DNA of 64,000 nucleotides from the NCBI RefSeq assembly GCF_032341175.1, contig NZ_CP135435.1, forward strand, positions 3,782,001 through 3,846,000. Direction: 5' to 3'. Each line of letters starts with the position of its first letter. The first letter of the stretch is position 1. Shown piece after piece: positions 10,573-28,392 of this stretch. Under the pieces are notes generated by a model that worked only from the letters and a program-made list of their open reading frames with translations, made no database searches and was not told the DNA's origin. This DNA is from Bacillus sp. DTU_2020_1000418_1_SI_GHA_SEK_038. Its GTDB lineage: Bacteria; Bacillota; Bacilli; Bacillales; Cytobacillaceae. The translations under genes and the position numbers were made by a program.

Positions 10573-11550
10573 CTAACCTCTAATCATTTGTATCAGTTCC
10601 TCCAGCTTCTTCCTTCTTTCTGCACGTGCTTGCATGGCCTGATCAATCGTTACGGTGATAAAGCGGCACTTGGATAATGGTCTTGATTGTGCGATTAGAT
10701 CCAGGTCTTGGCTAATAACCGTGCCAATCGTGATAAACCCCCCGCCCGTTGTTGCATCATTTTGCAGAACAATTAGTTCTTCCTCGTTTGTAAATAAAAC
10801 GGAACCAATTGGATAGGCAATATCAACGACATTGGAAAAACTATTCCCTGCACCGAATGGCGGATTCTGCTCGGTAAATTCCACTTTTGGACCCTTATAA
10901 CGGTAAGCAACTCGATTCGATTCGTGTGATACCGTCCATTCTGAATTGAGAAAGGTTTTTAGAGCAAGATCATTCATTAAATAACCCGTAATCCCCATCA
11001 TCACTCGTAATTCTTGAAAATCGCTAAAGGACGGGATATATTCGATTGGGATCGTTTTTCCGATTCTCTTGAAGGCATCGGGTAATGGCTCATTTATTTG
11101 GATCCTATCTCCAGCGGCTAATTTTCTGCCTTGAAAACCGCCAATTCTACTTAATTCATAGGTTGATTTACTGCCCATAACATCAGGTACATGAATACCG
11201 CCAGAAATACACAGATAACTTTTAACCCCTTTAGGGCAAGCTTTTATTTTTAAAATATCTCCTTCTTTTACTTGGTGGTTTTCCCAGAAGGAGATCGGCT
11301 TGTTATTTAAGTAGGATTCCATTGGGGCACCTGTTAGGGCGATTATGCAAGTTTTATGAAACACAAGTTCCCCGCCAATTAACGTCATTTCAATTGCTGC
11401 AAAATCCTTCGGATTTCCGACAAGCAGGTTCCCGATCATATACGAGTATTTATCAGCCGCTCCCGATGGCGGAACGCCCAAATGATATTTTCCAACTCGT
11501 CCCATATCCTGTACGGTTGTCCATAGCCCCGGCTCCCTTACCTCTATCAT
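10573..11550 (-). CDS. pxpC: PxpC-like (KipA) carboxyltransferase-family subunit, copy 1
   Basis: A 325-residue member of the biotin-dependent carboxyltransferase/allophanate hydrolase subunit 2 (KipA, PxpC) family. Signatures include TTVQDMGRVGKYHLGVPPSG at the N-terminus, a GGIHVP core motif and GAGNSFSNVVDIAYPIGS. In the PxpABC enzyme this subunit acts with PxpB in ATP-dependent opening of 5-oxoproline. It abuts pxpB copy 1 (stop and start adjacent). No pxpA lies next to it, unlike copy 2 at 23-25 kb, so it may act with the distant pxpA or have another substrate. Confidence 0.82.
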   Translation of the reverse strand: MIEVREPGLWTTVQDMGRVGKYHLGVPPSGAADKYSYMIGNLLVGNPKDFAAIEMTLIGGELVFHKTCIIALTGAPMESYLNNKPISFWENHQVKEGDILKIKACPKGVKSYLCISGGIHVPDVMGSKSTYELSRIGGFQGRKLAAGDRIQINEPLPDAFKRIGKTIPIEYIPSFSDFQELRVMMGITGYLMNDLALKTFLNSEWTVSHESNRVAYRYKGPKVEFTEQNPPFGAGNSFSNVVDIAYPIGSVLFTNEEELIVLQNDATTGGGFITIGTVISQDLDLIAQSRPLSKCRFITVTIDQAMQARAERRKKLEELIQMIRG

Positions 11551-12435
11551 TTAAAAGTCCTCCATTAACTCTTGGATATATTGTTTGCCCTTCTCAGCAT
11601 ATTCAAGTGGAGATAGGTCAATTTCTTTCATTTTAAGGCGATACTTACCAGCCTTCTCCTCACTCGTAATCTTATGATATTCAGATTCATTTATTGGACG
11701 GTATTTCCAAATATCACCTGGCCTAGCCAAAAAAGACGTCTCTTGTAATTCTTCTAATTGATTATGCTGATTGACTACAGAAACGGCAGACCGGCCGATA
11801 AGCTGATAGGTGCCTGGTCCGCTTACAGGGTAAATTACATTGAATGCCCCGCCAAGGCCCATGCCTCTTTCCGGTGTTTCCGCTCGGGGACTATTGTATT
11901 TAGGTGCTTGAATGATTTCGTTTGGCTGTAATCCAAGAGGGAAATGCCAGGCCGTTCCTGGAAGAAATCCGACCATCGTAATTAAATAAGGAGTTTCTGA
12001 ATGAGTTTGAATAAATGCTTCCTTGTCTGTAAAACCATTTACTTTCATAACAAATTCGAAGTTAGATAAATCGGGTGAAGGGTGTCTATTTCGAAAGCGA
12101 TGAGAAAATTCCTTCGATACAGGGTCATCGTACCATGCTGGAATTTCAACTATTCGGACTGAAAAATGCAGCTTTGTTGGATCGCTTTTCGTTAAATCAA
12201 TATCTTTTAATAAATCTAGCAAATCTTTTGCCAAGATGATATCCGGGTTGTAGCGAACTAAATAGGACGAATTGGATGGAACAATTTCCATAATTCCAGG
12301 GATATTTCTTTTTCTTAGTTCGTCTGTTACGGCCAAAGCTTTAAAGTTACTCTCAATCCTCATATCACGGGATATTTCAGCATAAATATATTCATCCCCG
12401 CCGAAATTAAAATGAGTTTCAGGCAAATTAAACAT
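11551..12435 (-). CDS. pxpB: PxpB-like (KipI) subunit, copy 1
   Basis: A 294-residue KipI/PxpB (allophanate hydrolase subunit 1) family protein with a cyclophilin-like C-terminal half. Family motifs are GFLPGTAWHFPLG near residue 165 and the RAETPERGMGLGGAFNVIYP region. It is longer than classic KipI (about 240) by N- and C-terminal extensions, as is copy 2. It lies 18 nt downstream of the sigma-54 activator gene and immediately upstream of pxpC copy 1, so the three genes are probably co-transcribed. Confidence 0.82.
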   Translation of the reverse strand: MFNLPETHFNFGGDEYIYAEISRDMRIESNFKALAVTDELRKRNIPGIMEIVPSNSSYLVRYNPDIILAKDLLDLLKDIDLTKSDPTKLHFSVRIVEIPAWYDDPVSKEFSHRFRNRHPSPDLSNFEFVMKVNGFTDKEAFIQTHSETPYLITMVGFLPGTAWHFPLGLQPNEIIQAPKYNSPRAETPERGMGLGGAFNVIYPVSGPGTYQLIGRSAVSVVNQHNQLEELQETSFLARPGDIWKYRPINESEYHKITSEEKAGKYRLKMKEIDLSPLEYAEKGKQYIQELMEDF

Positions 12436-12453
12436 TAGGAGTCACTCCTCTCA

Positions 12454-14493
12454 TTATTTCAGCTTTTTGATCCGCCTGCTGATCGTAGCCGGACTAACTC
12501 CGAGTACTTTTGATAATTTGTCGGCCGTTCGATATTTCTGCATTCCCCGCTCAATTAATTGAGTTTCTAATTCTTCAACAGCCTCTTTCAGCGGCATCAG
12601 CTCTAAAACAAATAACTGTTTTTTCTTCTTCTTCACTTCGCCGTATAAATATTTTAATGCGTGCTCCCGTTGAATCCATTCACCATCTGTCAGCAGAATA
12701 AGCCGCTCCACAATATTTTGGAGCTCTCTTACATTTCCAGGCCATGCATACGTCTCTAATACTTCAATGGCTTCTGGGGTGAAGCTTTTTTTAATATCAT
12801 ACATTTGTTTAAATTTCTCCAAAAAGTGAATCGACAAAGGCAGGATATCTTCCTTTCGCTCGCTTAAGGCAGGGATTCGAAAGGGAATGACATATAATCG
12901 ATAGTATAAATCCTCTCTAAATTCGCCTTGATTGACCATTTCTTGCAAATCCTTATTTGTCGCCGTAATAATCCGAACATTTACAGCAATCGGCCTGACC
13001 CCGCCTATCCTCGTTACTTCTCGTTCCTGCAGCACACGCAATAGCTTAACTTGCATATTTAATGGCAGCTCCCCAATTTCGTCAAGAAAGAGCGTGCCAT
13101 TATTAGCCATCTCAAATAGACCTGCTTTCCCATTTTTGTCTGCACCCGTAAATGAACCTTTCTCGTATCCAAATAATTCACTTTCAATCAGGTTTTCCGG
13201 TATTGCCCCACAGTTTATTCGTACAAACGGCTGCTTACTTCGCGGACTAGCTGTATGGATTTTATGGGCAAATACTTCTTTTCCGACTCCTGAATCGCCT
13301 TCTAGTAAAATAGTTGAATTAAATTGGGCCACTCTTTTAATCTCTGTAACTAATTGCTCGATTTTTTTTGAACGGTATACAAGCCTTTTTTCATTATGAT
13401 TATTTTCAAGTCTATTATGTAAAGATTGATCCGTATCGTCATCTTTAAGGGAGCTGCTTTGCTGGGTAATATCCCTTGAGAGGACAACGACCTTCTCTAA
13501 TTTTCCTTCGTGGTAAACAGGGGTTGCTACTGACCATACCCTGCTGCTTCCAGCGGAATCCTGAATCGCAGTTACCTTTTTCTTTTGCTTTTGGCATAAC
13601 TCAAAAACATTCGGCTGAAAAATGTTCCTTTTCGAAAATTCATCAATATTTTTCCCGATGATATTCTCAGGCTTTTCCACCTTCCAAAAGTCTCCGAGAA
13701 ACATGCCAGCGACACGAATGATTTTTCCGCTACCGTCAATTACGAGTATTTGTTCCTGAGAAGACGCGTAAACAGCCTGTAAATCGGAATTCAAATTTCG
13801 TACAAAATCAAGTTCATGTACGGCTTCCTCAAATACCTCTCTCGAGAAAAAAACATGAACAAGCCCAGTTATAATCCCATCTACCTGTAACGGATAAAAA
13901 TTCCCACTTAATTGTTTGAAATTAATTGATGAATTTACACTGACAAGCGTTTCCCCGTTCAACACCTTATCAAGGTCTTTATCATTCGTTAAAAGAGTTT
14001 TATAGTTTCGAAGCATCAGAAATGAGCTCGGAATGCCTAAAATATTTTCAGCCGTTTCATTAATAAATTCAATTTGATAATTGATATTTGTCCTGACAAT
14101 CCCTACACCCGCTCCATGCAATAGCAGATTGATATCCTTTAACCGCAGCTCACTTATTCCATGCCGTGCCTGTTCAATGGTCGTATAGCCAACAATTTCT
14201 TCCTTCTCATTAATTCCAATTATTAAAGAGACATTATGATAAAATTCAACCGGAGAAAACTGTGGGACTTTTAAAATATCATTTCTATACGTAATCATCT
14301 GTTTAAGATCTGAGGCTTTTGCGATTTGATTCAACAGAAGCTCCTTCGTACAATAACCTACTAGAGACCCTTGATCTGTTACTAAAACAATATCCGCATC
14401 TTGATTTGAAAAGTGGTGAATGACGGATTCAATCGTACTGTGAACATCAACAAAGATTGAAATCGGCTTCAGAATATCCTTCCAAATAATCAA
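12454..14493 (-). CDS. sigma-54-dependent activator with CBS and PAS domains
   Basis: A 679-residue enhancer-binding protein. An N-terminal CBS pair (about residues 5-105) is followed by two PAS-like regions (about 120-220 and 235-345), an AAA+ domain (about 370-600; Walker A GDSGVGKE, Walker B TLFLDEIGEL) and a Fis/TyrR-type HTH at the C-terminus (LSKVLGVSPATISRRIKKLK). The sigma-54 contact loop is GSFTGA, a known variant of GAFTGA. CBS domains usually bind adenine nucleotides, so energy or purine sensing is possible. Two -24/-12 promoters at 25 and 28 kb are its likely targets. A sigma-A promoter lies upstream. Confidence 0.92.
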   Translation of the reverse strand: MIIWKDILKPISIFVDVHSTIESVIHHFSNQDADIVLVTDQGSLVGYCTKELLLNQIAKASDLKQMITYRNDILKVPQFSPVEFYHNVSLIIGINEKEEIVGYTTIEQARHGISELRLKDINLLLHGAGVGIVRTNINYQIEFINETAENILGIPSSFLMLRNYKTLLTNDKDLDKVLNGETLVSVNSSINFKQLSGNFYPLQVDGIITGLVHVFFSREVFEEAVHELDFVRNLNSDLQAVYASSQEQILVIDGSGKIIRVAGMFLGDFWKVEKPENIIGKNIDEFSKRNIFQPNVFELCQKQKKKVTAIQDSAGSSRVWSVATPVYHEGKLEKVVVLSRDITQQSSSLKDDDTDQSLHNRLENNHNEKRLVYRSKKIEQLVTEIKRVAQFNSTILLEGDSGVGKEVFAHKIHTASPRSKQPFVRINCGAIPENLIESELFGYEKGSFTGADKNGKAGLFEMANNGTLFLDEIGELPLNMQVKLLRVLQEREVTRIGGVRPIAVNVRIITATNKDLQEMVNQGEFREDLYYRLYVIPFRIPALSERKEDILPLSIHFLEKFKQMYDIKKSFTPEAIEVLETYAWPGNVRELQNIVERLILLTDGEWIQREHALKYLYGEVKKKKKQLFVLELMPLKEAVEELETQLIERGMQKYRTADKLSKVLGVSPATISRRIKKLK

Positions 14494-14592: not shown

Positions 14593-15222
14593 CTATTTAT
14601 TCAAATTCCTGGCTTTTTCATATACTTCAGGTGTATCAACATCGAATAATATACCGCTATCTTCCACAGAAATGGATTGACGGGTAGAGATTTTACTAAT
14701 AATCGCTTTCGCACCTTGATCCCCTTGAATCTGCATAAATAGATTTCTATCAAGATGTCCAAAAAAAACAGGGTGCCCTGTCATTCCATTGAATTCGGGC
14801 CGTATAACAAAGCTTTCGTCTTGATTTTTTAGCATGTCTTTTCCTATTTGAAAAATGGTTTGAACAGTACTTTGAGAAATAAATGGAAGGTCGCCAAGGA
14901 ATACCATCACTCCTGAATGCTGGCTTCCTGCCTTTGCAATGCCTGTTTTTAATGAGGAGCCTTGCCCAGATAAATAATCTTTATTGACAACCCAGCGAAA
15001 TCGCGGATCCTTTATTGAAATAGTTTTTTGTATTTTATCAGCTTCACAGCCGATGACCGTTATAATTTCGGAAAAATTTGCGGTGGATGCCGATCGAATA
15101 ACATGCTCTAAAAGCGGCCGCCCCTTTAATTCTAGTAATTGCTTTGGCTGCCCCATACGAGAAGACGTACCGGCAGCAAGAATAATAGCACAAATAGATG
15201 GGTTCATCGTATGCTCATTCAT
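14593..15222 (-). CDS. MocA-like molybdenum cofactor cytidylyltransferase
   Basis: A 209-residue nucleotidyltransferase with the MobA/MocA signature LAAGTSSRMGQPKQLLELKG at its N-terminus and GDLPFIS as the metal-binding motif. The family makes molybdopterin cytosine dinucleotide for xanthine-dehydrogenase-type enzymes, which fits the hydroxylase genes upstream. I start at 15222, where the ATG overlaps the TGA of the XdhC gene as ATGA and GAAGGA lies 6 nt upstream; an in-frame ATG at 15240 is possible but would lie inside that gene. Confidence 0.85.
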   Translation of the reverse strand: MNEHTMNPSICAIILAAGTSSRMGQPKQLLELKGRPLLEHVIRSASTANFSEIITVIGCEADKIQKTISIKDPRFRWVVNKDYLSGQGSSLKTGIAKAGSQHSGVMVFLGDLPFISQSTVQTIFQIGKDMLKNQDESFVIRPEFNGMTGHPVFFGHLDRNLFMQIQGDQGAKAIISKISTRQSISVEDSGILFDVDTPEVYEKARNLNK

Positions 15223-16040
15223 ACCGGTTCCTTCGTGCACGCAGCTCTATGAATATATTCAGATCCTTGTAAAAATCCGCCCGAATGGCCATTCTTTTTC
15301 GCAACGACCTCCGCTAGAATACTAAGGGCGATTTCTTCAGGCGATACAGCTCCAATATCTAAACCAATTGGACTGTACATTCTATTAAGTTCAATTTCAT
15401 CGAAAAAGACACCGCCTTCTTCTAGTCCCTCTATCATCCGAATGCGGCGGGAGCGTGGGCCAAGAACACCAATATATGGCGATGGGGAGCGCAAGACAAA
15501 TTTCAATGTTTCCTGGTCTCTTTCAATATGGTGATTCATGACAACAATATACGTTCTTCGGCCGATCTTAATTTTTTCCTGAAATTCAGACGTTTTGGCA
15601 ATAATTCTGTTAGTTCCCGGAAAACGATCCTCATTATTATAAAATTCACGCTGGTCTACAACTGTTGTTTTAAACCCTAAAGAAACTGCATATTTGGCTA
15701 CTGGAATGGCATCGTGTCCGGCACCGAAAATCATCAGTTCCACTGGAGGGATATACACATCTATGAATACATGAATCTCATTTCCATCTGGCAGTGTGAA
15801 TACTCGAGTCTCCGATTTCGGATTTGTTTCATTTAATTTTCTTCTTGCCAGTTCTGTTATCCTTAGATTAATGTCCTCATCGCCAAGGTCGCCAATCGTT
15901 TCATGGCTTCCAGAAATAAATAAACGGTAAGGCTCTTTTGATTGATGTGATGGATTGATTGGCAGAATGGTTGCCAGAACACACTCCCGCTCTTCTTCGA
16001 AACTCGTTAACCATGCTTCAAATGGTGATAGGTTTAACAT
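15219..16040 (-). CDS. XdhC-family Mo-hydroxylase maturation factor (Rossmann part)
   Basis: A 273-residue protein carrying the XdhC C-terminal Rossmann-type domain: VELMIFGAGHDAIPVAKYA near residue 120, then VVDQREFYNNEDRFP and YIGVLGPRSRR. XdhC proteins bind the sulfurated cofactor and insert it into the Mo-hydroxylase. The CoxI/XdhC N-terminal domain found in single-chain XdhC is missing here and is encoded by the separate upstream gene (16061-16387). Confidence 0.85.
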   Translation of the reverse strand: MLNLSPFEAWLTSFEEERECVLATILPINPSHQSKEPYRLFISGSHETIGDLGDEDINLRITELARRKLNETNPKSETRVFTLPDGNEIHVFIDVYIPPVELMIFGAGHDAIPVAKYAVSLGFKTTVVDQREFYNNEDRFPGTNRIIAKTSEFQEKIKIGRRTYIVVMNHHIERDQETLKFVLRSPSPYIGVLGPRSRRIRMIEGLEEGGVFFDEIELNRMYSPIGLDIGAVSPEEIALSILAEVVAKKNGHSGGFLQGSEYIHRAACTKEPV

Positions 16041-16060: not shown

Positions 16061-16387
16061 TTAATAAGGCTCGACAGGTTCAATGTAAATTTTCACCGTG
16101 CCTGGGCAGCCCAGTCCGAGTCCCCATACTAGATCCTCGTCTAAATCGTATGTCCTCAGAATAGGAGTTCCTGACGCCATCACAGATTTTGCCACTTCTG
16201 CAACATCCGACTCCAGACATCCTCCAGAAATCATCCCGATCATGTTATCTTCCTCATCAACCAGCATCTTCGCCCCTTCTCTTTTATAAGCAGAACCCGC
16301 AACACTTACAACAGTGGCTAATGCTGATTTCCGACCTGATTTTCGTGTGTTGTTAATGGCTTCAATAATTAATTCATTATCGGTCAT
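16061..16387 (-). CDS. XdhC/CoxI N-terminal domain protein
   Basis: A 108-residue protein that is the XdhC_CoxI domain alone: ALATVVSVAGSAYKREGAKM, ISGGCLESDV and GLGLGCPG. With the next gene it rebuilds a full-length XdhC split in two. AGGAGG precedes the ATG. A terminator separates it from coxM upstream, so the two xdhC parts and mocA may form their own transcript or depend on read-through. Confidence 0.85.
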   Translation of the reverse strand: MTDNELIIEAINNTRKSGRKSALATVVSVAGSAYKREGAKMLVDEEDNMIGMISGGCLESDVAEVAKSVMASGTPILRTYDLDEDLVWGLGLGCPGTVKIYIEPVEPY

Positions 16388-16479: not shown

Positions 16480-17352
16480 TTAATAAAATACTGACTTTAA
16501 TGCCCTTTCCGTATACACCTTGCACAGGTTTCTTCTATACTCTTCAGATGTGTATAGATCGCTTGCCATTTCCCCTTCATCGGCTGCCAATTGTGCAGCT
16601 TCTTTAATCACCGATTCAGACAAGGTTTGGCCCAGAAGTTTATCCTCTACAGAGGTCGCACGATATGGAACATCCCCGACACCAGTAATAGCAATTTTAA
16701 TGTAATCAATGACATCATTTTCCCCAACTCCAGCAACAACGGCGACTCCGATGACCGGATAACCTGATGCCGGGTGGAAGAATTTGAGATAGGTTGATTT
16801 CGTATGCTTAGGTGGAATGGCAAATGAAACACTCGTTAACACACTATTTTCAGGCAGCATTGTAATAAGCGGTCCTACGATGAAGCTATCAATATTCATC
16901 GTTTCAGGACCTTCTTCTCCATGAAAAGCGATTTCTGCATCGAGTACGTAAGCTGCTGCAGGCAAGTCTGCAGCTGGATCCGCATGAGCGATATTCCCGC
17001 CAATCGTTCCCCGGTTGCGTACCTGCAGATCGCCAATTTGACGAACAGTTTCAGATAATACAGGAATATGTTCTTTTACAATTGGATCATTCGCAACTTG
17101 GAAATGGGTCGTGAGTGCACCAATAACGATGCGGTCTCCATCCTTTTGAACCCCTTTTAGCTCAGCAATGCGGCTAATATCAATCAGAGCGCCTGGTTCC
17201 GATAATCTGAATTTCAAAAGTGGAACTAAGCTATGTCCTCCAGCAATCAGCTTTCCTTCACCGTTACATTGCTGTAATTGCTGAATGGCCTCATCAATCG
17301 AATTTACGCGAATATAATCAAATTTAGAAGGTATCAACTCACTTGCCCTCAC
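16480..17352 (-). CDS. Mo-hydroxylase FAD-binding subunit (CoxM-like)
   Basis: A 290-residue medium subunit of the xanthine dehydrogenase/CO dehydrogenase family. The two FAD motifs are AGGHSLVPLLKFRL near residue 37 and GTIGGNIAHADPAADLP near residue 115. It passes electrons from the 2Fe-2S subunit to FAD. The frame starts with GTG at 17352, overlapping coxL by 14 nt; a TTG at 17337, with GAGGG 8 nt upstream, is an equally good start. Last gene before a terminator. Confidence 0.93.
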   Translation of the reverse strand: MRASELIPSKFDYIRVNSIDEAIQQLQQCNGEGKLIAGGHSLVPLLKFRLSEPGALIDISRIAELKGVQKDGDRIVIGALTTHFQVANDPIVKEHIPVLSETVRQIGDLQVRNRGTIGGNIAHADPAADLPAAAYVLDAEIAFHGEEGPETMNIDSFIVGPLITMLPENSVLTSVSFAIPPKHTKSTYLKFFHPASGYPVIGVAVVAGVGENDVIDYIKIAITGVGDVPYRATSVEDKLLGQTLSESVIKEAAQLAADEGEMASDLYTSEEYRRNLCKVYTERALKSVFY

Positions 17353-20196: not shown

Positions 20197-20279
20197 CCAG
20201 TGCACCTCCCAATTAGTACCTTTAAACCATTCGCTATGAATACACTCCCGTTACAATAAACAACGCTGAATAAAGTTAC

Positions 20280-20726
20280 CTAAACGAGCTGTTTCGCTTC
20301 TTTATCTATATCTTTAAAAAATTGACCAATGACAACCTTCGCTACTCCACTCATGACTCGCTGGCCAACCGAAGCGAGAATACCTGTCAATTTCACATCT
20401 GCCCTGCATTCAAGAACTGTTCCTTCTTCTGTTTCAACTAAAGCCATTTCTGCATCCGCATCAATTTCACCAGGCTTGCCCTTCCCGGTAACAAGCAGAC
20501 GGTAAAATTCAGGCTCCTTCTGATCAACCTGACGGACATCTCCTGTAAATACTCCCTTTACAGGACCAATACTAATGCCTAGCTCAGATTCAAAAACATT
20601 AGCCTCCACCTCAACAAATGACTTACAACCTGGTAATGACCTTTTCAACACCTCCTTATCTTGAATGGTTCTCCATAGCACTTCTCTTGGGATACCCTTG
20701 AAAGTATATGAATGCTCAATTTTCAA
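20280..20726 (-). CDS. CoxG-family SRPBCC protein
   Basis: A 148-residue SRPBCC (Bet v1-like) protein of the CO dehydrogenase subunit G family. The N-terminus is KIEHSYTFKGIPREVLWRT, followed by the typical LPGCKSF. CoxG proteins are linked to maturation or membrane anchoring of Mo-hydroxylases. The start codon is TTG, with GGAGAGGT 5 nt upstream. It lies 83 nt upstream of coxS on the same strand. Confidence 0.85.
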   Translation of the reverse strand: MKIEHSYTFKGIPREVLWRTIQDKEVLKRSLPGCKSFVEVEANVFESELGISIGPVKGVFTGDVRQVDQKEPEFYRLLVTGKGKPGEIDADAEMALVETEEGTVLECRADVKLTGILASVGQRVMSGVAKVVIGQFFKDIDKEAKQLV

Positions 20727-20869: not shown

Positions 20870-21634
20870 TTAAATTATTTTCTTGATAGGAACAATCTCG
20901 ACTCCGCTCGTTTTTAATGCTTCTACAATTTTCTTGGCCAATATAGGAGCACCTGGTGTATCTCCGTGTATGCAAATCGTTTCAGCTTTTATGGAAGCAT
21001 CCTTACCATCATGAGTAATGACTCGTTCCTCTTTTACCATTCGCACAACTCGTTGGGCCATCGCTTCGTAATCGCTGATTTCTGTACCTCTTCTCGTTAA
21101 TACAATCGAGCCGGTTTCTGTGTGCTCCCGATCAGAATAGACTTCTTTTGCAACCGGGACGCCCATTTTTATTGCTTCTTCCAGCAATTCGGACTGATTA
21201 AGAGCAAAAATAATCATTTGCGGGTCCATTTCGTGCAGTGTTTCTAATATGGCTCTTGCTAAGGTCTTATCCTCCGCAGCCTTCATAAATAAAGCTCCAT
21301 GCGGTTTACAATGCTGAATGCTCACTTTTTCTGCAGAACAGAACTCCCTTAAGGCCCCTACTTGATACATGACATAATCTTTAATTTCTGCTGGTGTACA
21401 AGTCATGTAGCGCCGGCCAAAGCCCAGTAGATCAGGAAATCCGGGATGCGCGCCAATTCCAACATCATATTTCTTCGCAAGCTCCACCGTCTTCCTCATT
21501 ACATGAGGATCCCCGGCATGAAAGCCACAAGCAATGTTGGCAGAGGTAATGTACTGCATCATTTCTTCATCATTGCCTAACTCGTAAAGCCCAAAGCTTT
21601 CCCCCATATCACAGTTCAAATCTACTTTAAACAT
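20870..21634 (-). CDS. pxpA: PxpA (LamB/YcsF family) hydrolase subunit
   Basis: A 254-residue protein of the LamB/YcsF family, the PxpA component of the PxpABC 5-oxoprolinase. Clear signatures are DLNCDMGESFGLYELGND at the N-terminus, ANIACGFHAGDP and GAHPGFPDLLGFGRR. In PxpABC it completes ATP-dependent opening of pyroglutamate to glutamate. It lies 4 nt downstream of the biotin carboxylase gene, which is not part of the classic pxp operon and points to a biotin-using relative. Confidence 0.93.
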   Translation of the reverse strand: MFKVDLNCDMGESFGLYELGNDEEMMQYITSANIACGFHAGDPHVMRKTVELAKKYDVGIGAHPGFPDLLGFGRRYMTCTPAEIKDYVMYQVGALREFCSAEKVSIQHCKPHGALFMKAAEDKTLARAILETLHEMDPQMIIFALNQSELLEEAIKMGVPVAKEVYSDREHTETGSIVLTRRGTEISDYEAMAQRVVRMVKEERVITHDGKDASIKAETICIHGDTPGAPILAKKIVEALKTSGVEIVPIKKII

Positions 21635-21638
21635 TGTG

Positions 21639-22994
21639 TCACCTCTTTTGCAGTTCTGCTTTATGCTCAGCTAGAAATTCAGTCGTATAATTTCCACTTA
21701 TAAACTGCTCGTTTTTCATTATCTTTTCTAGGAGCGGCAGATTCGTTTTAACTCCCTGAATATCCATTTCTTCAAGCACTTTTTGCATTTTACTAATCGC
21801 GTGATCACGGGATATGCCGTGCACAATAATTTTTCCAATCATTGGGTCATAGAAAGGTGTAACTGCACTTCCATTGATAAAGCCGAAATCATATCTGACA
21901 TTATCACCAGGCAGCTCCAGGCTAGAAATAACTCCGGGACTCGGGAAGAAGGTGACTGGATCCTCAGCATAAAGCCTGCATTCAATCGCATGACCAGTTT
22001 TTGTGATATTATCCTGGGTAAAAGGCAATTGTTCCTTTGCAGCAATCTTTAGCTGCAGCTCGACTAAATCCAATCCTGTTATTTCTTCCGTTACCGGGTG
22101 CTCTACCTGCAAACGGGTATTCATCTCAAGAAAATAGAAATTTTTATTTTCGTCAAAAATAAATTCCATTGTACCTACATTCGTATAATCAATTTGCTTT
22201 ACGCCACGAATGGCAGCTGCCAGCAGCTCATTTCTAAGGGTCTCATCCAAAAACGGGGACGGACTTTCTTCAATCACCTTTTGATTCCGCCGTTGGACTG
22301 AGCATTCTCTTTCAAATAAATGCATCACATTTCCATAGGCATCAGCAACAATTTGAACTTCGATATGGCGAGGCTTTGAAATCCACTTTTCCAGAAAAAC
22401 AGTGCCATCATTAAAAAATGAGTCTGCTTTCTGCTTTGTTGCATCAAACACCTTTAGTAACTCTTCTTGGTTGTGTACGAGCTGCATTCCGATACCGCCG
22501 CCGCCCGCACTCGCTTTTAACATAAGCGGATAGCCAAGATCGTTCGCAATCTGTATGGCTTCCTCTACAGATTCAACGCTTTTATCTGTACCCGGAACAA
22601 CGTTCACACCGGCTTTTTGCATTTGTATTCGTGCTTCAAGCTTGCTTCCCATGAGGCGCATCGTTTCTGCAGAAGGACCAATAAAAACAATATCTTCCTC
22701 CTCGCAGCGGCGGACAAATTCCGGATTCTCCGATAAAAATCCATAGCCTGGATGAATCGCATCCGCTTTCGTTTCTTTTGCTACCTGTATTACCTTTTCA
22801 ACATTTAGATAGCTTTTTTTCGCCTGGGCTGGACCGATGCATACAGCCTCTGTAGCCTCGCTAACATGGGGAGCCTCAGCATCTGCCTCAGAATAGACTG
22901 CAACGGTATCGATGCCAAGCTTCTTACAGGTGCGAATAATTCTCCTAGCAATTTCCCCTCTGTTTGCAATCAGCACCTTTTTAAAATAGGCCAT
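21639..22994 (-). CDS. accC: biotin carboxylase (AccC-like)
   Basis: A 451-residue ATP-grasp biotin carboxylase. RGEIARRI, HPGYGFLSEN, ECSVQRRNQK and EMNTRLQVEHPVTE are all present. The glycine-rich lid reads KASAGGGGIGM, where acetyl-CoA carboxylase AccC has GGGGRGM; as I recall, Ile at this position is found in urea carboxylases. It carboxylates the biotin on the small BCCP encoded 29 nt upstream. Position between pxpA and accB-pxpC-pxpB argues for a dedicated N-carboxylating enzyme rather than fatty-acid synthesis. Confidence 0.92.
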   Translation of the reverse strand: MAYFKKVLIANRGEIARRIIRTCKKLGIDTVAVYSEADAEAPHVSEATEAVCIGPAQAKKSYLNVEKVIQVAKETKADAIHPGYGFLSENPEFVRRCEEEDIVFIGPSAETMRLMGSKLEARIQMQKAGVNVVPGTDKSVESVEEAIQIANDLGYPLMLKASAGGGGIGMQLVHNQEELLKVFDATKQKADSFFNDGTVFLEKWISKPRHIEVQIVADAYGNVMHLFERECSVQRRNQKVIEESPSPFLDETLRNELLAAAIRGVKQIDYTNVGTMEFIFDENKNFYFLEMNTRLQVEHPVTEEITGLDLVELQLKIAAKEQLPFTQDNITKTGHAIECRLYAEDPVTFFPSPGVISSLELPGDNVRYDFGFINGSAVTPFYDPMIGKIIVHGISRDHAISKMQKVLEEMDIQGVKTNLPLLEKIMKNEQFISGNYTTEFLAEHKAELQKR

Positions 22995-23023: not shown

Positions 23024-23272
23024 TTACTGTTCAATGATGACTGCTATTTCCTGACCTGCATCGAGAAGGTCCTCATCCTCAACAAAGAATTGCGCAAGAA
23101 CTCCTTCATTCTCTGCTTTTATTTCATAAAAATTTTTCATAACCTCTACAAGGCCAATCACATCGCCCACTTTTACTTGGGCTCCTTCCTTTATATACAC
23201 ATCTTTATCTGGAGCTGGTTTGCGATAGAATACCCCCGGGATTGGTGTTAGTACTGTTTTTTGTTCAGCCAT
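23024..23272 (-). CDS. accB: minimal biotin carboxyl carrier protein
   Basis: An 82-residue protein that is only a biotinyl domain. The attachment motif is VEVMKNFYE (biotinyl Lys in MK), preceded by the GDVIGLVE turn. Usual AccB proteins are about 150-170 residues with a Pro/Ala linker; here that part is absent. AGGAGG lies 8 nt before the ATG. It overlaps pxpC copy 2 by 8 nt, so a shared complex is likely. Confidence 0.9.
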   Translation of the reverse strand: MAEQKTVLTPIPGVFYRKPAPDKDVYIKEGAQVKVGDVIGLVEVMKNFYEIKAENEGVLAQFFVEDEDLLDAGQEIAVIIEQ

Positions 23273-24263
23273 TTTTTAATCCTCCTGCTTGAGCTAATAC
23301 TTGCTGCTTCATTTGATTGATTTTATTCTGATAATCTTTGCGGATCTCAAGTGCTTCGTGGATATCAACTGCTACAAATCGAACTTTTTCATTCGTTTTG
23401 ATTTGTGCCATTTTATTTAAATCGGTACTGATAATCGTACAAATCGTTGCATATCCTCCGCCTGTCACAGCATCGTTTAAGAGGGCAATCGGCTCTACGC
23501 CATCAGGCACCTGAATGGATCCAATTGGATAGCCTAAATCGACAACATTGGATGGATTGCTTCCAGCTCCAAACGGCTGCTCACGCTCAACGAAATTTAA
23601 ACGCTCTCCTTTAAATCGATAGCCCACACGATTCGCTTCTGGTGTAACAGTCCATTCCATAGAGAAAAATCGCTCTTTACTTTCCTCAGTCAACCGATAA
23701 CTGCATAGTCCTAAAACAACACGGACTTCATTTGTTTTCGAGAATGTCGGAATAAGTTCATCACTAATGCGGGTTCCGGTGGCTATTGCAGTTTCGTGAT
23801 CATTGCCAATTTTCAATTCATCCCCAGATTGAAGTGCGCGGCCTTCGTAGCCTCCAATGCCACACAATGTATAGGTAGAGCGTGATTCCATGATTAGCGG
23901 CACGTCAATTCCTCCTGCCACTGCCAAATACACACGTGCACCTTGTTTGATAAAATCGAATGAAAGAACATCTCCAGCCTTTACTTCAAGCGTTTCCCAC
24001 ATCGGCACAGGCTCGCCATTGATTTTCGGCGGCATCTCGCCACCCGTAATGGCAACGGTTGCATTTTGCTGAAATTCTAAGATTGGGCCCATATAGGTAA
24101 TTTCAAGAACGGCCGCATTTTCCTTGTTCCCAACGAGTAAATTGCTCGCAAAGTAAGAATATTTATCCATGGCTCCTGACGGCGGCATCCCCACTTCATA
24201 ATGGCCAATTCTGCCGGAATCTTGAACGGTCGTTTGCAGTCCAGGATTGATTACTTTAATCAT
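23265..24263 (-). CDS. pxpC: PxpC-like (KipA) carboxyltransferase-family subunit, copy 2
   Basis: A 332-residue KipA/PxpC family protein: TTVQDSGRIGHYEVGMPPSG, VAVAGGIDVPLIM-like core (LAVAGGIDVP) and GAGSNPSNVVDLGYPIGS. The same fold forms half of the carboxyltransferase domain of urea carboxylase. Overlaps pxpB copy 2 by 4 nt (ATGA) and accB by 8 nt, so these three genes are tightly coupled. It is clearly a paralogue of the 10573-11550 gene, with conserved motifs but substantial divergence. Confidence 0.88.
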   Translation of the reverse strand: MIKVINPGLQTTVQDSGRIGHYEVGMPPSGAMDKYSYFASNLLVGNKENAAVLEITYMGPILEFQQNATVAITGGEMPPKINGEPVPMWETLEVKAGDVLSFDFIKQGARVYLAVAGGIDVPLIMESRSTYTLCGIGGYEGRALQSGDELKIGNDHETAIATGTRISDELIPTFSKTNEVRVVLGLCSYRLTEESKERFFSMEWTVTPEANRVGYRFKGERLNFVEREQPFGAGSNPSNVVDLGYPIGSIQVPDGVEPIALLNDAVTGGGYATICTIISTDLNKMAQIKTNEKVRFVAVDIHEALEIRKDYQNKINQMKQQVLAQAGGLKNG

Positions 24264-25129
24264 GCATACAACCTCCTTAACACGGAATCTGAAAATGCTT
24301 TCGGATTTTCGAGCACTTCTTGAGGCTTAAATGTAATTTCCTTTGTTAAATAACGGAACTCTCCACTTTCCACTTCTTTTCGAATATCCTCGTATTCCTC
24401 CATCGTAATGCTTCGATATCGGAAAACATCTCCCTGTCTAGGGAAGGTCATCGACTCTTTGAAATCATGCAAGCGCTGTTCTTTTTCATAAATTGGGGCT
24501 GCTGCAGTTCCGAAGAGTTGGTAGCCGCCAGCTCCCTGCACAGGGTATATAACGGCAAAGGCCCCGCCAAATCCAAATGCTCTTTCTGGTGTAAACGTAC
24601 GTGGGCGAACATATTTTGGCGCTTCGATTTGCTGTTCACGGGGCACCATTTGATAGCACCATGGCAATCCCGGAACAAACCCGATCATCGAAACGAGATA
24701 CGGGCTATCTGTAATCGATTTAATGAGTTCTTCTTTAGATTGAAAGCCATTTGTACGGGCCACATATTCAAGGTCTGTTGCTGTCGGGTCCTGATGCCTG
24801 TCCCTGAAACGCATTAATGCCTCATGTGTCCAAGGATCTTCGAATAATATCGGCACATCCACAGCACGGGCTGTTATTTCAAAGCTTTCTAAGGAAACCG
24901 TCTGTTCTAGTTCTTTCAATTTTGAAATTAATTCATCTGGGTGAATGATATCTGGATTAAAACGAATCATATAGGATGCATTGGAAGGACAGATATCCAG
25001 AATTCCCGAAAGGTTTTCCTCTCTCAATGTCTTTGTAATCGCCATAGCCTGAAAATTCGTTTCTAGGCTCATCGCCTCAGATAATTCAACAAAAATAAAC
25101 TCATCACCGCCATATTCATAACGGGCCAA
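24260..25129 (-). CDS. pxpB: PxpB-like (KipI) subunit, copy 2
   Basis: A 289-residue KipI/PxpB family protein with GFVPGLPWCYQM near residue 160 and RTFTPERAFGFGGAFAVIYP. It would pair with PxpC to form the carboxyltransferase-like active site. It is the first gene of the pxpB-pxpC-accB-accC-pxpA run and sits directly behind a sigma-54 promoter. The N-terminus (YGGDEFIFVELSEAM) matches that of copy 1 (FGGDEYIYAEISRDM), confirming paralogy. Confidence 0.88.
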   Translation of the reverse strand: MARYEYGGDEFIFVELSEAMSLETNFQAMAITKTLREENLSGILDICPSNASYMIRFNPDIIHPDELISKLKELEQTVSLESFEITARAVDVPILFEDPWTHEALMRFRDRHQDPTATDLEYVARTNGFQSKEELIKSITDSPYLVSMIGFVPGLPWCYQMVPREQQIEAPKYVRPRTFTPERAFGFGGAFAVIYPVQGAGGYQLFGTAAAPIYEKEQRLHDFKESMTFPRQGDVFRYRSITMEEYEDIRKEVESGEFRYLTKEITFKPQEVLENPKAFSDSVLRRLYA

Positions 25130-25166
25130 AGGACTTCACCTCACTGAAAGTATTTATCTACTAATC

Positions 25167-25184
25167 TTGCAAATTCCATGCCAA
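25167..25184 (-). promoter_or_regulatory. sigma-54 (-24/-12) promoter for the pxpB2 operon
   Basis: On minus the sequence TTGGCATGGAATTTGCAA matches TGGCAYR-N4-TTGCA, the sigma-54 consensus, about 38-55 bp upstream of pxpB copy 2. Confidence 0.85.
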
Positions 25185-25244
25185 GATAATATTTATTGAT
25201 TTTTCAGATTACTAGTTCTCGGGTGCTGAAAAGTGCGGTGAAAT

Positions 25245-25281
25245 CTTTCAGAATTGAAAGATTGTTTTTCAGTATTGAAAG
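25245..25281 (-). promoter_or_regulatory. tandem upstream activator sites
   Basis: Two 16-bp palindromes, CTTTCAGAATTGAAAG (25245-25260) and TTTTCAGTATTGAAAG (25266-25281), spaced 21 bp, two helical turns. They lie about 60-100 bp upstream of the -24 element, the usual place for an enhancer-binding protein. Confidence 0.7.
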
Positions 25282-25359
25282 TGTTTGGTAAGGTTATTTT
25301 CGAAAATAGACTAGAAGCGGGATGATTTGCAAAATGGTAGGTATGTTAGGGAATTGGCT

Positions 25360-25479
25360 TATATATCTTGAAATTCACTGATATATCTCGAAAGTCGCCG
25401 ATATATCTCGAAAGTCGCCGATATATCCTGAAAGTCGCTGATATATTCCGAAAGTCGCTGATATATCTTTAAAAGCTAC
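25360..25479. repeat. 20-bp tandem repeat, six units
   Basis: Six consecutive 20-bp units with consensus GATATATCTCGAAAGTCGCC start at 25360, 25380, 25400, 25420, 25440 and 25460. Units two and three are identical; the outer ones are degenerate. No reading frame or RNA gene explains them. Confidence 0.9.
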
Positions 25480-25520
25480 GCCATATAACTCAAATAAGCC
25501 CCGAAATTTTGAAAGTGAAT

Positions 25521-25570
25521 AAAAAAAGGACTGCATCATCTTTTATTAAAAAGATTTGCAGTCCTCTTTC
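25521..25570. terminator. terminator after the aldehyde dehydrogenase gene
   Basis: AGGACTGCA and TGCAGTCCT form the outer stem, ATCTTTT and AAAAGAT the inner stem, with A/T runs on both sides. Confidence 0.85.
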
Positions 25571-26992
25571 TTAATTTCTATTAAAAACAACTAGCTTCTG
25601 CTCAGTCATTTCTTCAATCGCATATTTTATACCTTCCCGGCCAACTCCACTTTCTTTAACACCGCCGTATGGCATGTGGTCCACTCGGAAGGTTGGAATG
25701 TCATTGATCATGACTCCTCCTACATGTAGCTGCTGTGCTGCAGTTAGTGCGGTATGGACGTTATCCGTATAGATACCAGCCTGGAGCCCATACCGGGAAT
25801 CATTCACAAGCTCAATGGCCTCATCCACAGATTTCACTTTATTAATCAGCACAATCGGGGCAAATACTTCCTGACAGGATACCTTTAGACAAGGATCAGC
25901 ATCTAAGAGAACAGTCGGCAATAAAATATTCCCCTCCGATGTTCCACCTACAGCCACCTTAGCTCCCTGCTGTTTCGCTTCCTCCAGCCAATCAAGCGTC
26001 CGCTGTACATCTTTTTCCGTAATTAAAGCGGAAACATCTGTCGCCGGATCAAGCGGATCGCCAATATTCAGCTTCTTCGTTGCTTCAACAAATTTGTCAA
26101 CAAAAGCCTCATATAAATCTTCATGAATATATACACGCTGCAAGGAAATGCAAACCTGGCCTTGAAAGCCGAATGCGCCTGCTACACAACGCGAAATAAT
26201 TTTATCAATATTAATCTCTTTATCAATAATGACCGCGGCATTCGAACCTAACTCCAGCGTAACACGCTTTAACCCCGCTTTATTCCGGATTCCAATCCCC
26301 ACCGCAGGACTTCCGGTAAATGAAATCTTTTGGACCCGGTCGTCTTTCACAAGCTTTTCACCAATGATCGATCCACTGCCTGTTACAACATTCAAGGCAC
26401 CAGCCGGCAATCCCGCTTCTTGGAATAATTCAGCAATGAAAAACGCCGATAACGGAGTTTGACCAGCAGGTTTCAAAACAACAGTATTCCCTGAAGCAAT
26501 AGCTGGCCCTACCTTGTGTGCGACTAAATTCATTGGAAAATTAAAAGGGGTTATCGCGCCAATCACTCCAATTGGTTCCCGCACGGTGTAGGCCAGTCTT
26601 CCTTCCCCGCCAGGTGCCGCATCAAGCGGAATCGTTTCCCCATGAATACGCTTCGCTTCTTCAGCAGCAAATTTATATGTTTGAATCGTGCGGGCTACTT
26701 CCGTCCTTGCCGCAGATATTGGCTTGGCAGCCTCAGTGGCAATAACTTCAGCTGCCTCATCAGCCCTCTTCTCTAATAGGAATACTACTTTTTCTAATAT
26801 TTGCGCTCGTTGATGGCTTGGCATAGCCGCCATTATTTTTCTTGCGTTAAAAGCAGCCTCTAATCCTCTATCAATCTCTTCCACCGTTGCTGCTGGAATC
26901 TCGGCAATCACCTTTCCACTGTAAGGAGAGCTTAGTGGTACATACTGACTTGCCTCGATCCATTCACCATTCATGAATAATTTCTTCTTCAA
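25571..26992 (-). CDS. aldehyde dehydrogenase
   Basis: A 473-residue NAD(P)-dependent ALDH. Catalytic Cys281 lies in GFQGQVC, Glu247 in LELGSN (many ALDHs have LELGGK), and Asn151 in TPFNFP. The LELGSN form occurs in the lactaldehyde/phosphonoacetaldehyde-like ALDH groups. Start is TTG with GGGGAG 6 nt upstream. It lies 65 nt downstream of the class III aminotransferase, so the pair probably turns an omega-amino acid into a dicarboxylate through the semialdehyde. The exact substrate is not set by sequence. Confidence 0.93.
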   Translation of the reverse strand: MKKKLFMNGEWIEASQYVPLSSPYSGKVIAEIPAATVEEIDRGLEAAFNARKIMAAMPSHQRAQILEKVVFLLEKRADEAAEVIATEAAKPISAARTEVARTIQTYKFAAEEAKRIHGETIPLDAAPGGEGRLAYTVREPIGVIGAITPFNFPMNLVAHKVGPAIASGNTVVLKPAGQTPLSAFFIAELFQEAGLPAGALNVVTGSGSIIGEKLVKDDRVQKISFTGSPAVGIGIRNKAGLKRVTLELGSNAAVIIDKEINIDKIISRCVAGAFGFQGQVCISLQRVYIHEDLYEAFVDKFVEATKKLNIGDPLDPATDVSALITEKDVQRTLDWLEEAKQQGAKVAVGGTSEGNILLPTVLLDADPCLKVSCQEVFAPIVLINKVKSVDEAIELVNDSRYGLQAGIYTDNVHTALTAAQQLHVGGVMINDIPTFRVDHMPYGGVKESGVGREGIKYAIEEMTEQKLVVFNRN

Positions 26993-27057
26993 TTAGATCT
27001 CCCCTTATTCATTCTTATCTTAATAGTTTTATATTCTTCATTATCACCCAAAACCCT

Positions 27058-28392
27058 TTATAACTTTAAAACCTCAGCTTCAATTGCCGCAATCGCATCA
27101 TGTAGGATATCAAGCATTCTTGCCATCTCTTCTTTATTGATAATTAACGGCGGCGCAAATACAAGCGTATCCTGGCCATCAAACACGACAGATCTGCAAA
27201 TCAGGCCCCGCTTTGCCGCTTCGGTTACAATCATTGGTGCTAATGGAGCCGAAAATTTCTCATTTGTCTGTTGATCTTTTACAATTTCAATGCCGCCCAT
27301 CAATCCAAGGCCCTTTACTTTACCAACAATTTTACGCTCGCCTTGAATCCATTTAAAGCCTTTTAGCATTTCGTCTCCCATGATTTCAGCATTCTTAATA
27401 AGGTTTTCCTCTTCAATAATTTCGATATTTTTCAATGCAACTGCACAAGCCATTGGGTGCCCGCTGTACGTATAGCCATGCAACAGTGTCCCTGTCGAGA
27501 GCTCAGTAAAATCTTGGTGAATTTTTTCAGAAATCATTACGCCGCCTAATTGGGCGTAGCCACTCGTCACACCTTTTGCAAAGCACATCATATCTGGCAC
27601 AACCCCATAATGCTCAATCCCAAAATATTTCCCTGTCCGGCCAAATCCTGTAATCACTTCGTCTGTTATAAATAAAATGCCATACTCATCACAAATACTT
27701 CTAACTTCCTTAAAATAGCCATCTGGTGCGACATGCAGCCCTCCTGCTCCTTGCACAGGCTCTGCAATAAACGCCGCAATGGACTCTGGACCTTCCGCTT
27801 CAATCACATCACGCAAATCTTGAGTTGAAAAGTGATCTGCGTAGCAGTAATCTGGATCAAATGAGTTTGTAAAGTCACGGAACGGCTTCAAGCCAGTTGC
27901 ATTTGTCGAACCCATCGCGACTCCGTGATAGGACTTCGTTCGCGAGATGATCTTTTTTCGATTCGGCTGCCCTTTTAAAATCCAATAATGGCGTGCCAGT
28001 TTATACGCTGTATCATTTGCCTCTGAACCGCCGGAAGTAAAGAATGTGGCCTTTAAATCCCCAGGTGCAATCTCGGCCAATTTTGCAGCCAAACGAATCG
28101 CAGGTTCATTGCTAAATGTAGCAAAGCATGAGGAGAATGCTAGCTTGGACATTTGTTCCATCGCCACTTTCCCCAATTCCTCTCTCCCATGCCCAACATT
28201 CACATTCCATAGAGAAGACATGCCATCAATGACTGTATTCCCCGCCATGTCGTGAAGGTGTACCCCTTTCCCTTCTGTAAAAATAAACGATGGCCCCTGA
28301 TCTTGCTGCTGCTTTATAGGAGAGGTTGGATGCAGAAAATGTTTCTTATCAAAGTCCATTAATTCTTGAATGCTACTCGTATTCTTTATCAT
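27058..28392 (-). CDS. class III (omega-amino acid) aminotransferase
   Basis: A 444-residue PLP enzyme of the class III aminotransferase family. The PLP Lys is K273 in CFAKGVTSGY, the cofactor Asp is D244 in FITDEVITGFGRTG, and TSGGSEANDTA is near residue 120. It is in the omega-amino acid:pyruvate / GABA-type group. It follows a sigma-54 promoter at 28444-28460, precedes the aldehyde dehydrogenase, and is oriented with the catabolic cluster, which suggests it removes the amino group from the ring-opened product. Confidence 0.92.
   Translation of the reverse strand: MIKNTSSIQELMDFDKKHFLHPTSPIKQQQDQGPSFIFTEGKGVHLHDMAGNTVIDGMSSLWNVNVGHGREELGKVAMEQMSKLAFSSCFATFSNEPAIRLAAKLAEIAPGDLKATFFTSGGSEANDTAYKLARHYWILKGQPNRKKIISRTKSYHGVAMGSTNATGLKPFRDFTNSFDPDYCYADHFSTQDLRDVIEAEGPESIAAFIAEPVQGAGGLHVAPDGYFKEVRSICDEYGILFITDEVITGFGRTGKYFGIEHYGVVPDMMCFAKGVTSGYAQLGGVMISEKIHQDFTELSTGTLLHGYTYSGHPMACAVALKNIEIIEEENLIKNAEIMGDEMLKGFKWIQGERKIVGKVKGLGLMGGIEIVKDQQTNEKFSAPLAPMIVTEAAKRGLICRSVVFDGQDTLVFAPPLIINKEEMARMLDILHDAIAAIEAEVLKL

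Follow-up and report, generated by a model that had tools for sequence, protein, structure and literature searches.

Results

Gene content of the cluster

The 64-kb window analyzed here (positions 3,782,001 to 3,846,000 of contig NZ_CP135435.1) comes from the single-contig, 4.47-Mb genome of Bacillus sp. DTU_2020_1000418_1_SI_GHA_SEK_038. Between window positions 10573 and 28392, on the minus strand, it carries a gene cluster in which a split, biotin-dependent carboxylase resembling urea carboxylase stands beside a molybdenum hydroxylase, and which we propose may serve the opening of lactam rings. In the order of transcription the cluster consists of an aminotransferase and an aldehyde dehydrogenase gene (amt-aldh), pxpB2-pxpC2-accB-accC-pxpA, coxG-coxS-coxL-coxM, xdhC divided into two genes, mocA, the gene for a sigma-54 activator, and a second carboxyltransferase pair, pxpB1-pxpC1. 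Every one of these is an intact frame whose family membership was assigned by Pfam and NCBIfam profile matches (Table 1), so that the gene list of the initial annotation stands in full; this includes accB, which falls below the length limit of the open reading frame listing and was recovered by translation.

The carboxylase resembles urea carboxylase cut into four proteins

Taken together, AccC, AccB, PxpC2 and PxpB2 cover the parts of a urea carboxylase (biotin carboxylase, carrier and carboxyltransferase), here divided among four proteins, with PxpA as an extra component. The kinship that the initial annotation had proposed, a split enzyme like urea carboxylase plus PxpA, held up in the domain matches, in the conserved biotinyl lysine and in a carboxyltransferase lysine described below. 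Both PxpB1 and PxpB2 score higher against the urea carboxylase model than against the PxpB model, and both miss the cut-off of the PxpB model (NCBIfam TIGR00370). PxpC1 and PxpC2 fall under the cut-off of the PxpC equivalog NF045499 and over that of TIGR00724, a broad model of the 5-oxoprolinase/urea amidolyase family that cannot tell these two functions apart. PxpA passes two subfamily cut-offs, NF003814 and NF003816 (255.5 against 213 for the latter), and misses three equivalog models. The urea carboxylase equivalog TIGR02712, a one-chain model with a cut-off of 1303.85 bits, was missed by the pieces (577.2, 263.7 and 128.2), a pass that splitting by itself would preclude. No member of an allophanate hydrolase/amidase family was found among the window cluster proteins scanned.

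An excerpt of PMC5770610 names Lys1605 of K. lactis urea amidolyase as the most probable general base in carboxyl transfer. PxpB2 Lys172 aligns with this residue, with the numbering checked. The Lys1605 column holds lysine in all 46 PxpB2 rows of the alignment (the window included, with three duplicates) and in all 12 PxpB1 rows (one duplicate), whereas all 14 rows of ordinary PxpB have arginine. A tree likewise split ordinary PxpB from all PxpB1 and PxpB2 rows at 100/100, with PxpB1 as a single branch within the latter group, a placement that carries a long-branch warning. The biotinyl MK motif is present in each linked AccB listed.

The gene set recurs in other genomes

We read 43 loci chosen by PxpB/PxpC similarity: 27 distinct Bacillales loci, 22 of them from one PxpC2 scan and the rest from a 299-genome sample of the order, and 16 plasmid loci, of which 15 were among the 40 matches listed of 566 matched records and one (L061) entered via CoxL with PxpB close by. 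Three further loci (L037, L038 and L042), on contigs equal in length to those of L007, L015 and L018, were taken as duplicates of these and excluded from distinct counts. With pxpB2 and pxpC2 present in all 43 by selection, accB and pxpA were also found in 43, accC in 39 and coxL in 21, a count that omits L008, whose locus stops within coxL. The co-occurrence that the initial annotation had offered as a check is seen for the carboxylase genes, and for the hydroxylase it extends to 18 of the 27 Bacillales loci, where a coxL of the window type lies beside the set (L008 included; L013 stops after coxG/coxS). A CoxL-like protein is encoded in four of the 16 plasmid loci, at 46% identity in two of them and at 26-27% in the others. 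In the haloarchaeon Natrinema gelatinilyticum (L061), a pxpB-pxpC-accB-coxG-coxS-coxL-coxM-pxpA run is followed on the opposite strand by accC and a partial class III aminotransferase gene; Rubrobacter (L052) has pxpB-pxpC-pxpA-accB-coxL with a divergent accC, and in Diaphorobacter and Sulfitobacter the pxp/acc genes are followed by an ATP-binding cassette (ABC) transporter and then by a distant molybdenum hydroxylase. The locus nearest to the window among those compared is L020, from Bacillus sp. FJAT-29937, with pxp/acc proteins 91-99% identical.

Across the order sample, PxpB2-type proteins (66-100% identity) occur in 9 of 299 genomes, from 8 families. CoxL of the window subtype (at least 66%) occurs in three of the 299, all three within those nine, and the next best CoxL reaches 43%. 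The hypergeometric chance of this overlap is 1.9e-5; with the window genome itself excluded (2 of 298, among 8) it is 6.3e-4.

Regulatory sites of the carboxylase and hydroxylase genes

The -24/-12 promoter pattern TGGCAYRNNNNTTGCW has 34 matches in the genome, against two for the reversed pattern, which predicts about 0.0013 matches on one strand of a 350-base upstream region. Within the cluster it occurs upstream of pxpB2 (TGGCATGGAATTTGCA) and of amt (TGGCATAAAATTTGCA) only, in agreement with the two promoters initially annotated. The locus thus has both a -24/-12 promoter and an activator with a sigma-54 interaction domain. Among relatives, the pattern lies upstream of pxpB2 in 12 of the 26 distinct Bacillales loci examined. 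Separately, the -24/-12 sites of the window genome at G000:C1:774244-774259 and 4078723-4078738 are letter-identical to the pxpB2 and amt promoter sites.

Upstream of the pxpB2 promoter lies a candidate activator-binding site made of two TTCA-N4-TGAA palindromes. In 680,002 bases, comprising 32 loci and the window, 13 such pairs were found, nine upstream of pxpB2 (the window and eight relatives) and four upstream of coxG, with none elsewhere in these bases and none in 20 Markov-shuffled sets. In the 4.47-Mb genome the exact paired site occurs once, in the cluster; a second match with one mismatch, at G000:C1:2234110, has no -24/-12 site nearby. When coxG does not lie within about 0.6 kb behind pxpA, a -24/-12 site and a paired site precede it in four of six loci (L008, L021, L022 and L023); when it directly follows pxpA, the combination was found in none of 12. 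In the lineages with pairs, then, the same kind of activator site marks both the putative lactamase genes and the hydroxylase genes, and at the level of regulatory sites this speaks against the unrelated inducers that the initial annotation had named as a refutation. The activator encoded in the cluster most likely binds these sites. Recurrence across loci, together with the regulatory-site tests, led us to set aside a chance neighborhood. A functional link between the carboxylase set and the hydroxylase is supported by these sequence comparisons, because the two co-occur and because separately placed hydroxylase genes bear the same paired site and -24/-12 promoter.

We looked for the same activator site at aminotransferase promoters and did not find it, either upstream of amt in the window or upstream of five amt and four gabT genes in relatives. 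A -24/-12 site precedes four of these five amt genes (the same site in L003, L017 and L020, a variant in L037, none in L024) but one of the four gabT genes, and another sigma-54 activator gene adjoins amt in L037 and gabT in L043. Since the amt-aldh promoter lacks the paired site, these two genes are probably under another sigma-54 activator. The initial view of one sigma-54-controlled cluster therefore fits the carboxylase and the hydroxylase and, as far as seen, does not extend to amt-aldh.

The hydroxylase is not assigned to carbon monoxide oxidation

The label CoxL calls for qualification. The form I carbon monoxide (CO) dehydrogenase loop contains a cysteine. CoxL of the window has DAYRGAGK in place of the form I loop and scores 726.7 against the cut-off of 991.15 of the NCBIfam CO dehydrogenase model TIGR02416, and it also falls under the glyceraldehyde dehydrogenase cut-offs. 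We therefore rejected CO oxidation as its function.

Neighboring genes point to an omega-amino acid

Downstream transamination and oxidation, as initially suggested, found backing in several relatives. In L014 and L019 the set lies beside a GabT that passes curated cut-offs and a succinate semialdehyde dehydrogenase (SSADH) just under its cut-off; L039 and L043 have GabT-like and aldehyde dehydrogenase (ALDH)/SSADH genes upstream of pxpB2; GabT and SSADH are annotated in Ruegeria (L069). The Agrobacterium rubi plasmid locus (L055) has an annotated GabT together with an LLM-class flavin-dependent oxidoreductase and F420 biosynthesis genes, and no molybdenum hydroxylase is annotated in that stretch. 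On a plasmid of Rhizobium sp. CIAT894 (L065) the set, an ABC transporter, SSADH, carbonic anhydrase and biotin synthesis genes all run in one direction, an arrangement that looks as if biotin and bicarbonate supply were bundled. A bacterial microcompartment locus that brings its own aminotransferase and aldehyde dehydrogenase lies close to the set in L054 (Rhodococcus jostii RHA1 pRHL2).

Class III aminotransferases (at least 35% identity to the window Amt or to GabT of L019) accompany the set in 13 of the 43 loci, or 14 with L007, where the gene was seen in the duplicate L037; ALDH (at least 34%) does so in 12 of 43. Excluded from these counts were the aminotransferases of L009 (27%, class III), L054 (28%, microcompartment locus) and L065 (27%, annotated for biotin synthesis), and the opposite-strand ALDH matches of L008 and L021. 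As the 4.47-Mb window genome encodes nine class III aminotransferases (Aminotran_3), Amt being one of them, such neighbors are not expected often. Because GabT and SSADH genes lie beside the set in several relatives, the product would be gamma-aminobutyrate (GABA) or 5-aminovalerate, and the likeliest substrate 2-pyrrolidinone or a homologue.

A second carboxyltransferase pair and other features

The pxpB1-pxpC1 pair lies downstream of the activator gene and encodes the same carboxyltransferase lysine as pxpB2. In L046 and L047 an activator-pxpB1-pxpC1 unit is followed by hydantoinase A and B genes, with no pxpB2; L046 keeps an accB. L048 and L049 resemble these units by gene lengths only. In L044 a purine/hydantoin-type permease gene (PF02133) lies behind pxpB1-pxpC1. 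The pxpB1-pxpC1 pair may broaden the range of substrates to further cyclic amides, and the units with hydantoinase genes are perhaps a second lactam or hydantoin system.

The window genome as a whole holds two pxpBC pairs, both in the cluster, one pxpA (the sole copy detected in a genome search), three MoCoBD_2 proteins and two hydantoinase B proteins. Between aldh and pxpB2, at 25357-25468, are 5.6 tandem copies of a 20-base unit, which has 29 matches in the genome with at most one mismatch, including several other places, against none for a reversed control.

Table 1. Genes and candidate regulatory sites of the cluster, in window coordinates, with the profile matches (bit scores) and sequence features behind each assignment.
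Feature	Position	Strand	Basis
-24/-12 (sigma-54) promoter-like site of amt-aldh, TGGCATAAAATTTGCA	28444..28459	-	67 bases upstream of amt
amt, class III omega-aminotransferase	27058..28392	-	PF00202 337.1 bits; nearest NCBIfam NF005682, 442 vs cut-off 510 (below)
aldh, aldehyde dehydrogenase	25571..26992	-	PF00171 537.3 bits; under the cut-off of each listed NCBIfam model (25 of 45 matched)
Paired activator-binding-like site, two TTCA-N4-TGAA palindromes 21 bases apart	25247..25279	.	upstream of pxpB2
-24/-12 (sigma-54) promoter-like site of pxpB2, TGGCATGGAATTTGCA	25168..25183	-	starts 54 bases upstream of pxpB2
pxpB2, carboxyltransferase subunit (CT_C_D), urea-carboxylase type	24260..25129	-	PF02682; urea carboxylase model 128.2 bits vs PxpB 69.2 (cut-off 145.55)
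pxpC2, carboxyltransferase subunit (CT_A_B)	23265..24263	-	PF02626 307.5 bits; PxpC equivalog 241.8 vs 500; TIGR00724 291.8 vs 230.2
accB, 82-aa biotinyl carrier protein	23024..23272	-	PF00364 (Biotin_lipoyl) 51.1 bits; biotinyl lysine within EVMKNFYEI
accC, biotin carboxylase	21639..22994	-	three biotin carboxylase domains; 475.5 bits to propionyl-CoA carboxylase alpha (PDB set)
pxpA, LamB/YcsF family, putative ring-opening subunit	20870..21634	-	PF03746 317.6 bits; NF003814 335.8 vs cut-off 226
coxG	20280..20726	-	PF06240 84 bits
coxS, 2Fe-2S subunit	19684..20205	-	PF01799, PF00111
coxL, molybdopterin subunit, xanthine-oxidase-family hydroxylase	17339..19684	-	PF20256, PF02738, PF01315; loop DAYRGAGK, GVGE present
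coxM, flavin adenine dinucleotide (FAD) subunit	16480..17352	-	PF00941, PF03450
xdhC, N-terminal half (XdhC_CoxI)	16061..16387	-	PF02625
xdhC, C-terminal half (Rossmann)	15219..16040	-	PF13478
mocA-like molybdenum cofactor nucleotidyltransferase	14593..15240	-	PF12804; TIGR03310 157.1 vs cut-off 186.45 (below)
Sigma-54 activator (PAS, AAA+, HTH)	12454..14493	-	PF00158 243.5 bits, HTH_50, PAS_9; PrdR model 405.4 vs cut-off 795 (below)
pxpB1, second CT_C_D subunit, lysine likewise present	11551..12435	-	PF02682; PxpB TIGR00370 74.4 vs 145.55
pxpC1, second CT_A_B subunit	10573..11550	-	PF02626 265.5 bits; PxpC equivalog 192.1 vs 500; TIGR00724 259.4 vs 230.2

Discussion

A proposed route from nitrogen ring to amino acid

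From the gene content, recurrence, regulatory-site patterns and residue conservation that we observed directly, we infer a chemistry, a substrate, a product and a binding activator as follows. Hydroxylation of a carbon adjacent to nitrogen is an established reaction of the molybdenum hydroxylase family. CoxSLM, matured by CoxG, XdhC and MocA, would act on a cyclic imine or N-heterocycle such as 1-pyrroline, hydroxylating the carbon beside nitrogen to yield a lactam. AccC would then carboxylate biotin on AccB, using ATP and bicarbonate, and the PxpB2-PxpC2 carboxyltransferase would move the carboxyl group onto the ring nitrogen of the lactam, giving an imide-like form that should be readily hydrolyzed. 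PxpA would add water to this activated amide, after which the carbamate would lose CO2 to leave an omega-amino acid; bicarbonate would thereby be catalytic, with ATP paying. We propose such lactamase chemistry because the parts of a urea carboxylase are present. The lactam would most likely be 2-pyrrolidinone, giving GABA, and next delta-valerolactam, giving 5-aminovalerate. The sigma-54 activator, most likely that of the cluster, would switch on the lactamase and hydroxylase genes through the paired sites, while the products of amt and aldh, genes that probably answer to a different sigma-54 activator, would complete the route to a dicarboxylate.

These proposals differ in how much confidence they deserve. 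We judge it likely that the core of the cluster is a lactamase (or cyclic amide hydrolase) that depends on biotin and is regulated together with the hydroxylase. The full explanation that we consider best, in which the whole locus forms a regulon devoted to the catabolism of a small nitrogen ring, is also probable, if a little less secure. Evenly balanced is the broader idea that Bacteria and haloarchaea share a widespread class of biotin-dependent lactamases, which would N-carboxylate cyclic amides, would be distinct from 5-oxoprolinase and hydantoinase, and in several lineages would form one regulon with a molybdenum hydroxylase that turns N-heterocycles or cyclic imines into lactams, making a complete route from ring to GABA (or 5-aminovalerate). 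The specific assignment of 2-pyrrolidinone and GABA to this genome is tentative, at less than even odds.

Several observations weigh against the proposed route. The hydroxylase is not constant: none was found in the DNA read for 8 of the 27 Bacillales loci and 12 of the 16 others, L064 and L066 hold only a distant one (26-27%), and four of the best plasmid CoxL relatives (L058, L059, L060 and L062; 47-50%) have no pxp genes in the stretches read, so that a general link between the CoxL family and pxp genes failed there. The regulatory pattern has gaps as well. The strict -24/-12 pattern was not found upstream of pxpB2 in 14 of the 26 Bacillales loci, nor upstream of the separately placed coxG in L014 and L016, and to these are added the aminotransferase genes without a paired site and the gabT genes without a -24/-12 site noted above. 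Amt of the window is not GabT by the NCBIfam cut-off. Finally, accC is absent from 4 of the 43 loci. These loci (L009, L021, L040 and L041) keep accB, with accC outside the stretch read, and the fatty-acid enzyme may supply biotin carboxylase.

Alternative substrates and roles

The substrate could instead, as the initial annotation had also considered for ureides, hydantoins and pyrimidines, be a cyclic ureide (a hydantoin, a dihydropyrimidine or a purine product), with the hydroxylase oxidizing the ring and the split urea carboxylase acting on a ureide nitrogen. Urea carboxylase kinship would suit this, as would the activator-pxpB1-pxpC1 units beside hydantoinase A/B genes or the PF02133 permease gene and the amidases near the set in L052, L053 and L063. 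We nevertheless consider it unlikely, given that a GABA-type aminotransferase and SSADH would be superfluous for ureides and that the window cluster proteins include no dihydropyrimidinase, allantoinase or allophanate hydrolase family.

The main rival for the role of the hydroxylase has it act not upstream, on the ring, but downstream, as an aldehyde oxidase that would, for instance, turn succinate semialdehyde into succinate. CoxS, CoxM and CoxL do score near archaeal glyceraldehyde dehydrogenase models, and several sets with a hydroxylase have no nearby ALDH while several with ALDH have no hydroxylase. However, hydroxylase and ALDH/SSADH genes occur together in L003, L014, L017, L020, L024, L061 and the window, and the lactamase activator site precedes hydroxylase genes in four loci and no aminotransferase promoter examined. 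A downstream oxidase thus seems quite unlikely to us.

Next, the Pxp and Acc proteins might form a biotin-assisted 5-oxoprolinase for pyroglutamate, the hydroxylase being a separate function in the same neighborhood. Here the genome contents bear directly. At least five of the eight other sampled cluster genomes (L072-L076) additionally hold an ordinary, arginine-type pxpBC, and therefore the cluster is not the sole candidate 5-oxoprolinase in those five. The window genome has no pxpBC beyond the cluster pairs, and genome G151 has, by count, one CT_A_B match only; there, 5-oxoproline could therefore be a substrate, which tells against the lactam route, as do three points on biotin. First, accB and accC adjoin arginine-type pxpBC in 2 of 14 loci (L083 and L084), and accB alone in a third (L075). 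Second, PDB entry 9yx5 contains, by sequence matches, the AccA3 biotin carboxylase with an arginine-type PxpB and a PxpC chain. Biotin use may therefore not be confined to the lysine type, and these two findings suggest the involvement of biotin in some ordinary PxpBC. Third, the PxpABC mechanism is assumed, in the part of PMC13274462 drawn on here, to be a biotin-free phosphorylation by PxpBC. The PxpA subfamily match and the broad PxpC match would accord with a 5-oxoprolinase; the missed PxpB and PxpC equivalog cut-offs, the lysine in place of arginine, the GabT/SSADH neighbors and the separately placed hydroxylase genes with the common activator site do not, and the two hydantoinase B/oxoprolinase genes of the window genome offer another possible route for the substrate. 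On balance we find a 5-oxoprolinase improbable. Urea itself, which the domain content and catalytic lysine might suggest, was set aside as a substrate and is very improbable, with no allophanate hydrolase family among the cluster proteins and with PxpA, the hydroxylase and the GABA genes left unexplained.

Relation to known systems

A lactamase with these parts would have its closest counterpart in fungi. LamA is a one-chain, fused urea carboxylase-like protein. In A. nidulans, according to an excerpt of PMC8016842, lamA/lamB are genes of lactam catabolism under the regulator AmdR, which also controls the omega-amino-acid genes gatA and gabA. The relation of ycsF (PxpA) to lamB was drawn early (excerpt of PMC3412718), and the portion of PMC3073912 drawn on here describes an A. 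nidulans urea carboxylase of 1,241 aa that lacks the amidase domain, without naming lamA. The cluster has a LamB-family protein in common with the fungal pair. GabT lies beside the set in relatives; the promoter of amt in the window has a -24/-12 site but, like the four gabT genes examined, lacks the paired site. Unlike the fungal system, the cluster is prokaryotic, splits the carboxylase into four separate proteins and combines it with a molybdenum hydroxylase and a sigma-54 activator.

With the prokaryotic 5-oxoprolinase PxpABC the cluster shares the PxpA, PxpB and PxpC families, but it adds AccB and AccC, has the lysine of urea carboxylase where PxpB has arginine, misses the equivalog cut-offs and forms a separate branch. 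With urea carboxylase and urea amidolyase it has the general-base lysine in common, as well as the biotin carboxylase, biotinyl and carboxyltransferase parts; unlike them, it divides the enzyme among four proteins and has PxpA in place of allophanate hydrolase. ATP-driven lactam opening, as proposed here, would also recall caprolactamase CapAB and hydantoinase HyuAB, which belong to other protein families, use no biotin and are not in the window cluster. For caprolactamase, a carboxylated lactim is among the mechanisms considered in the excerpted text of PMC8453981. CoxGSLM with XdhC and MocA, and the CoxD- and CoxE-like proteins of several relatives, resemble the 'CO dehydrogenase-like' hydroxylases with an AYRGAG-type loop, which go by the name of form II. 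The window enzyme is set apart from those by its genetic tie to the lactamase genes and by falling under the CO dehydrogenase cut-off.

Each half of the system, as judged from these comparisons, has known relatives. The initial annotation knew of no described pathway with these exact parts, and nothing that we saw in the mostly open-access literature searched described AccBC combined with PxpABC, with or without a molybdenum hydroxylase; given the fungal lamA/lamB counterpart, the lactam-opening half is less new than was first held.

If the proposal is correct, it would have consequences for how such genes are named. In the plasmid records read they are annotated as 5-oxoprolinase, carboxyltransferase, allophanate hydrolase or acetyl-CoA carboxylase, names that would be misleading in several phyla. 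Biotin chemistry would gain a role in hydrolysis, beyond synthesis. The named gene set could be tested for a part in breaking down lactams and N-heterocycles, among them solvents and polymer precursors, and the prokaryotic enzyme would offer a testable model for the fungal lam genes, which are known by genetics.

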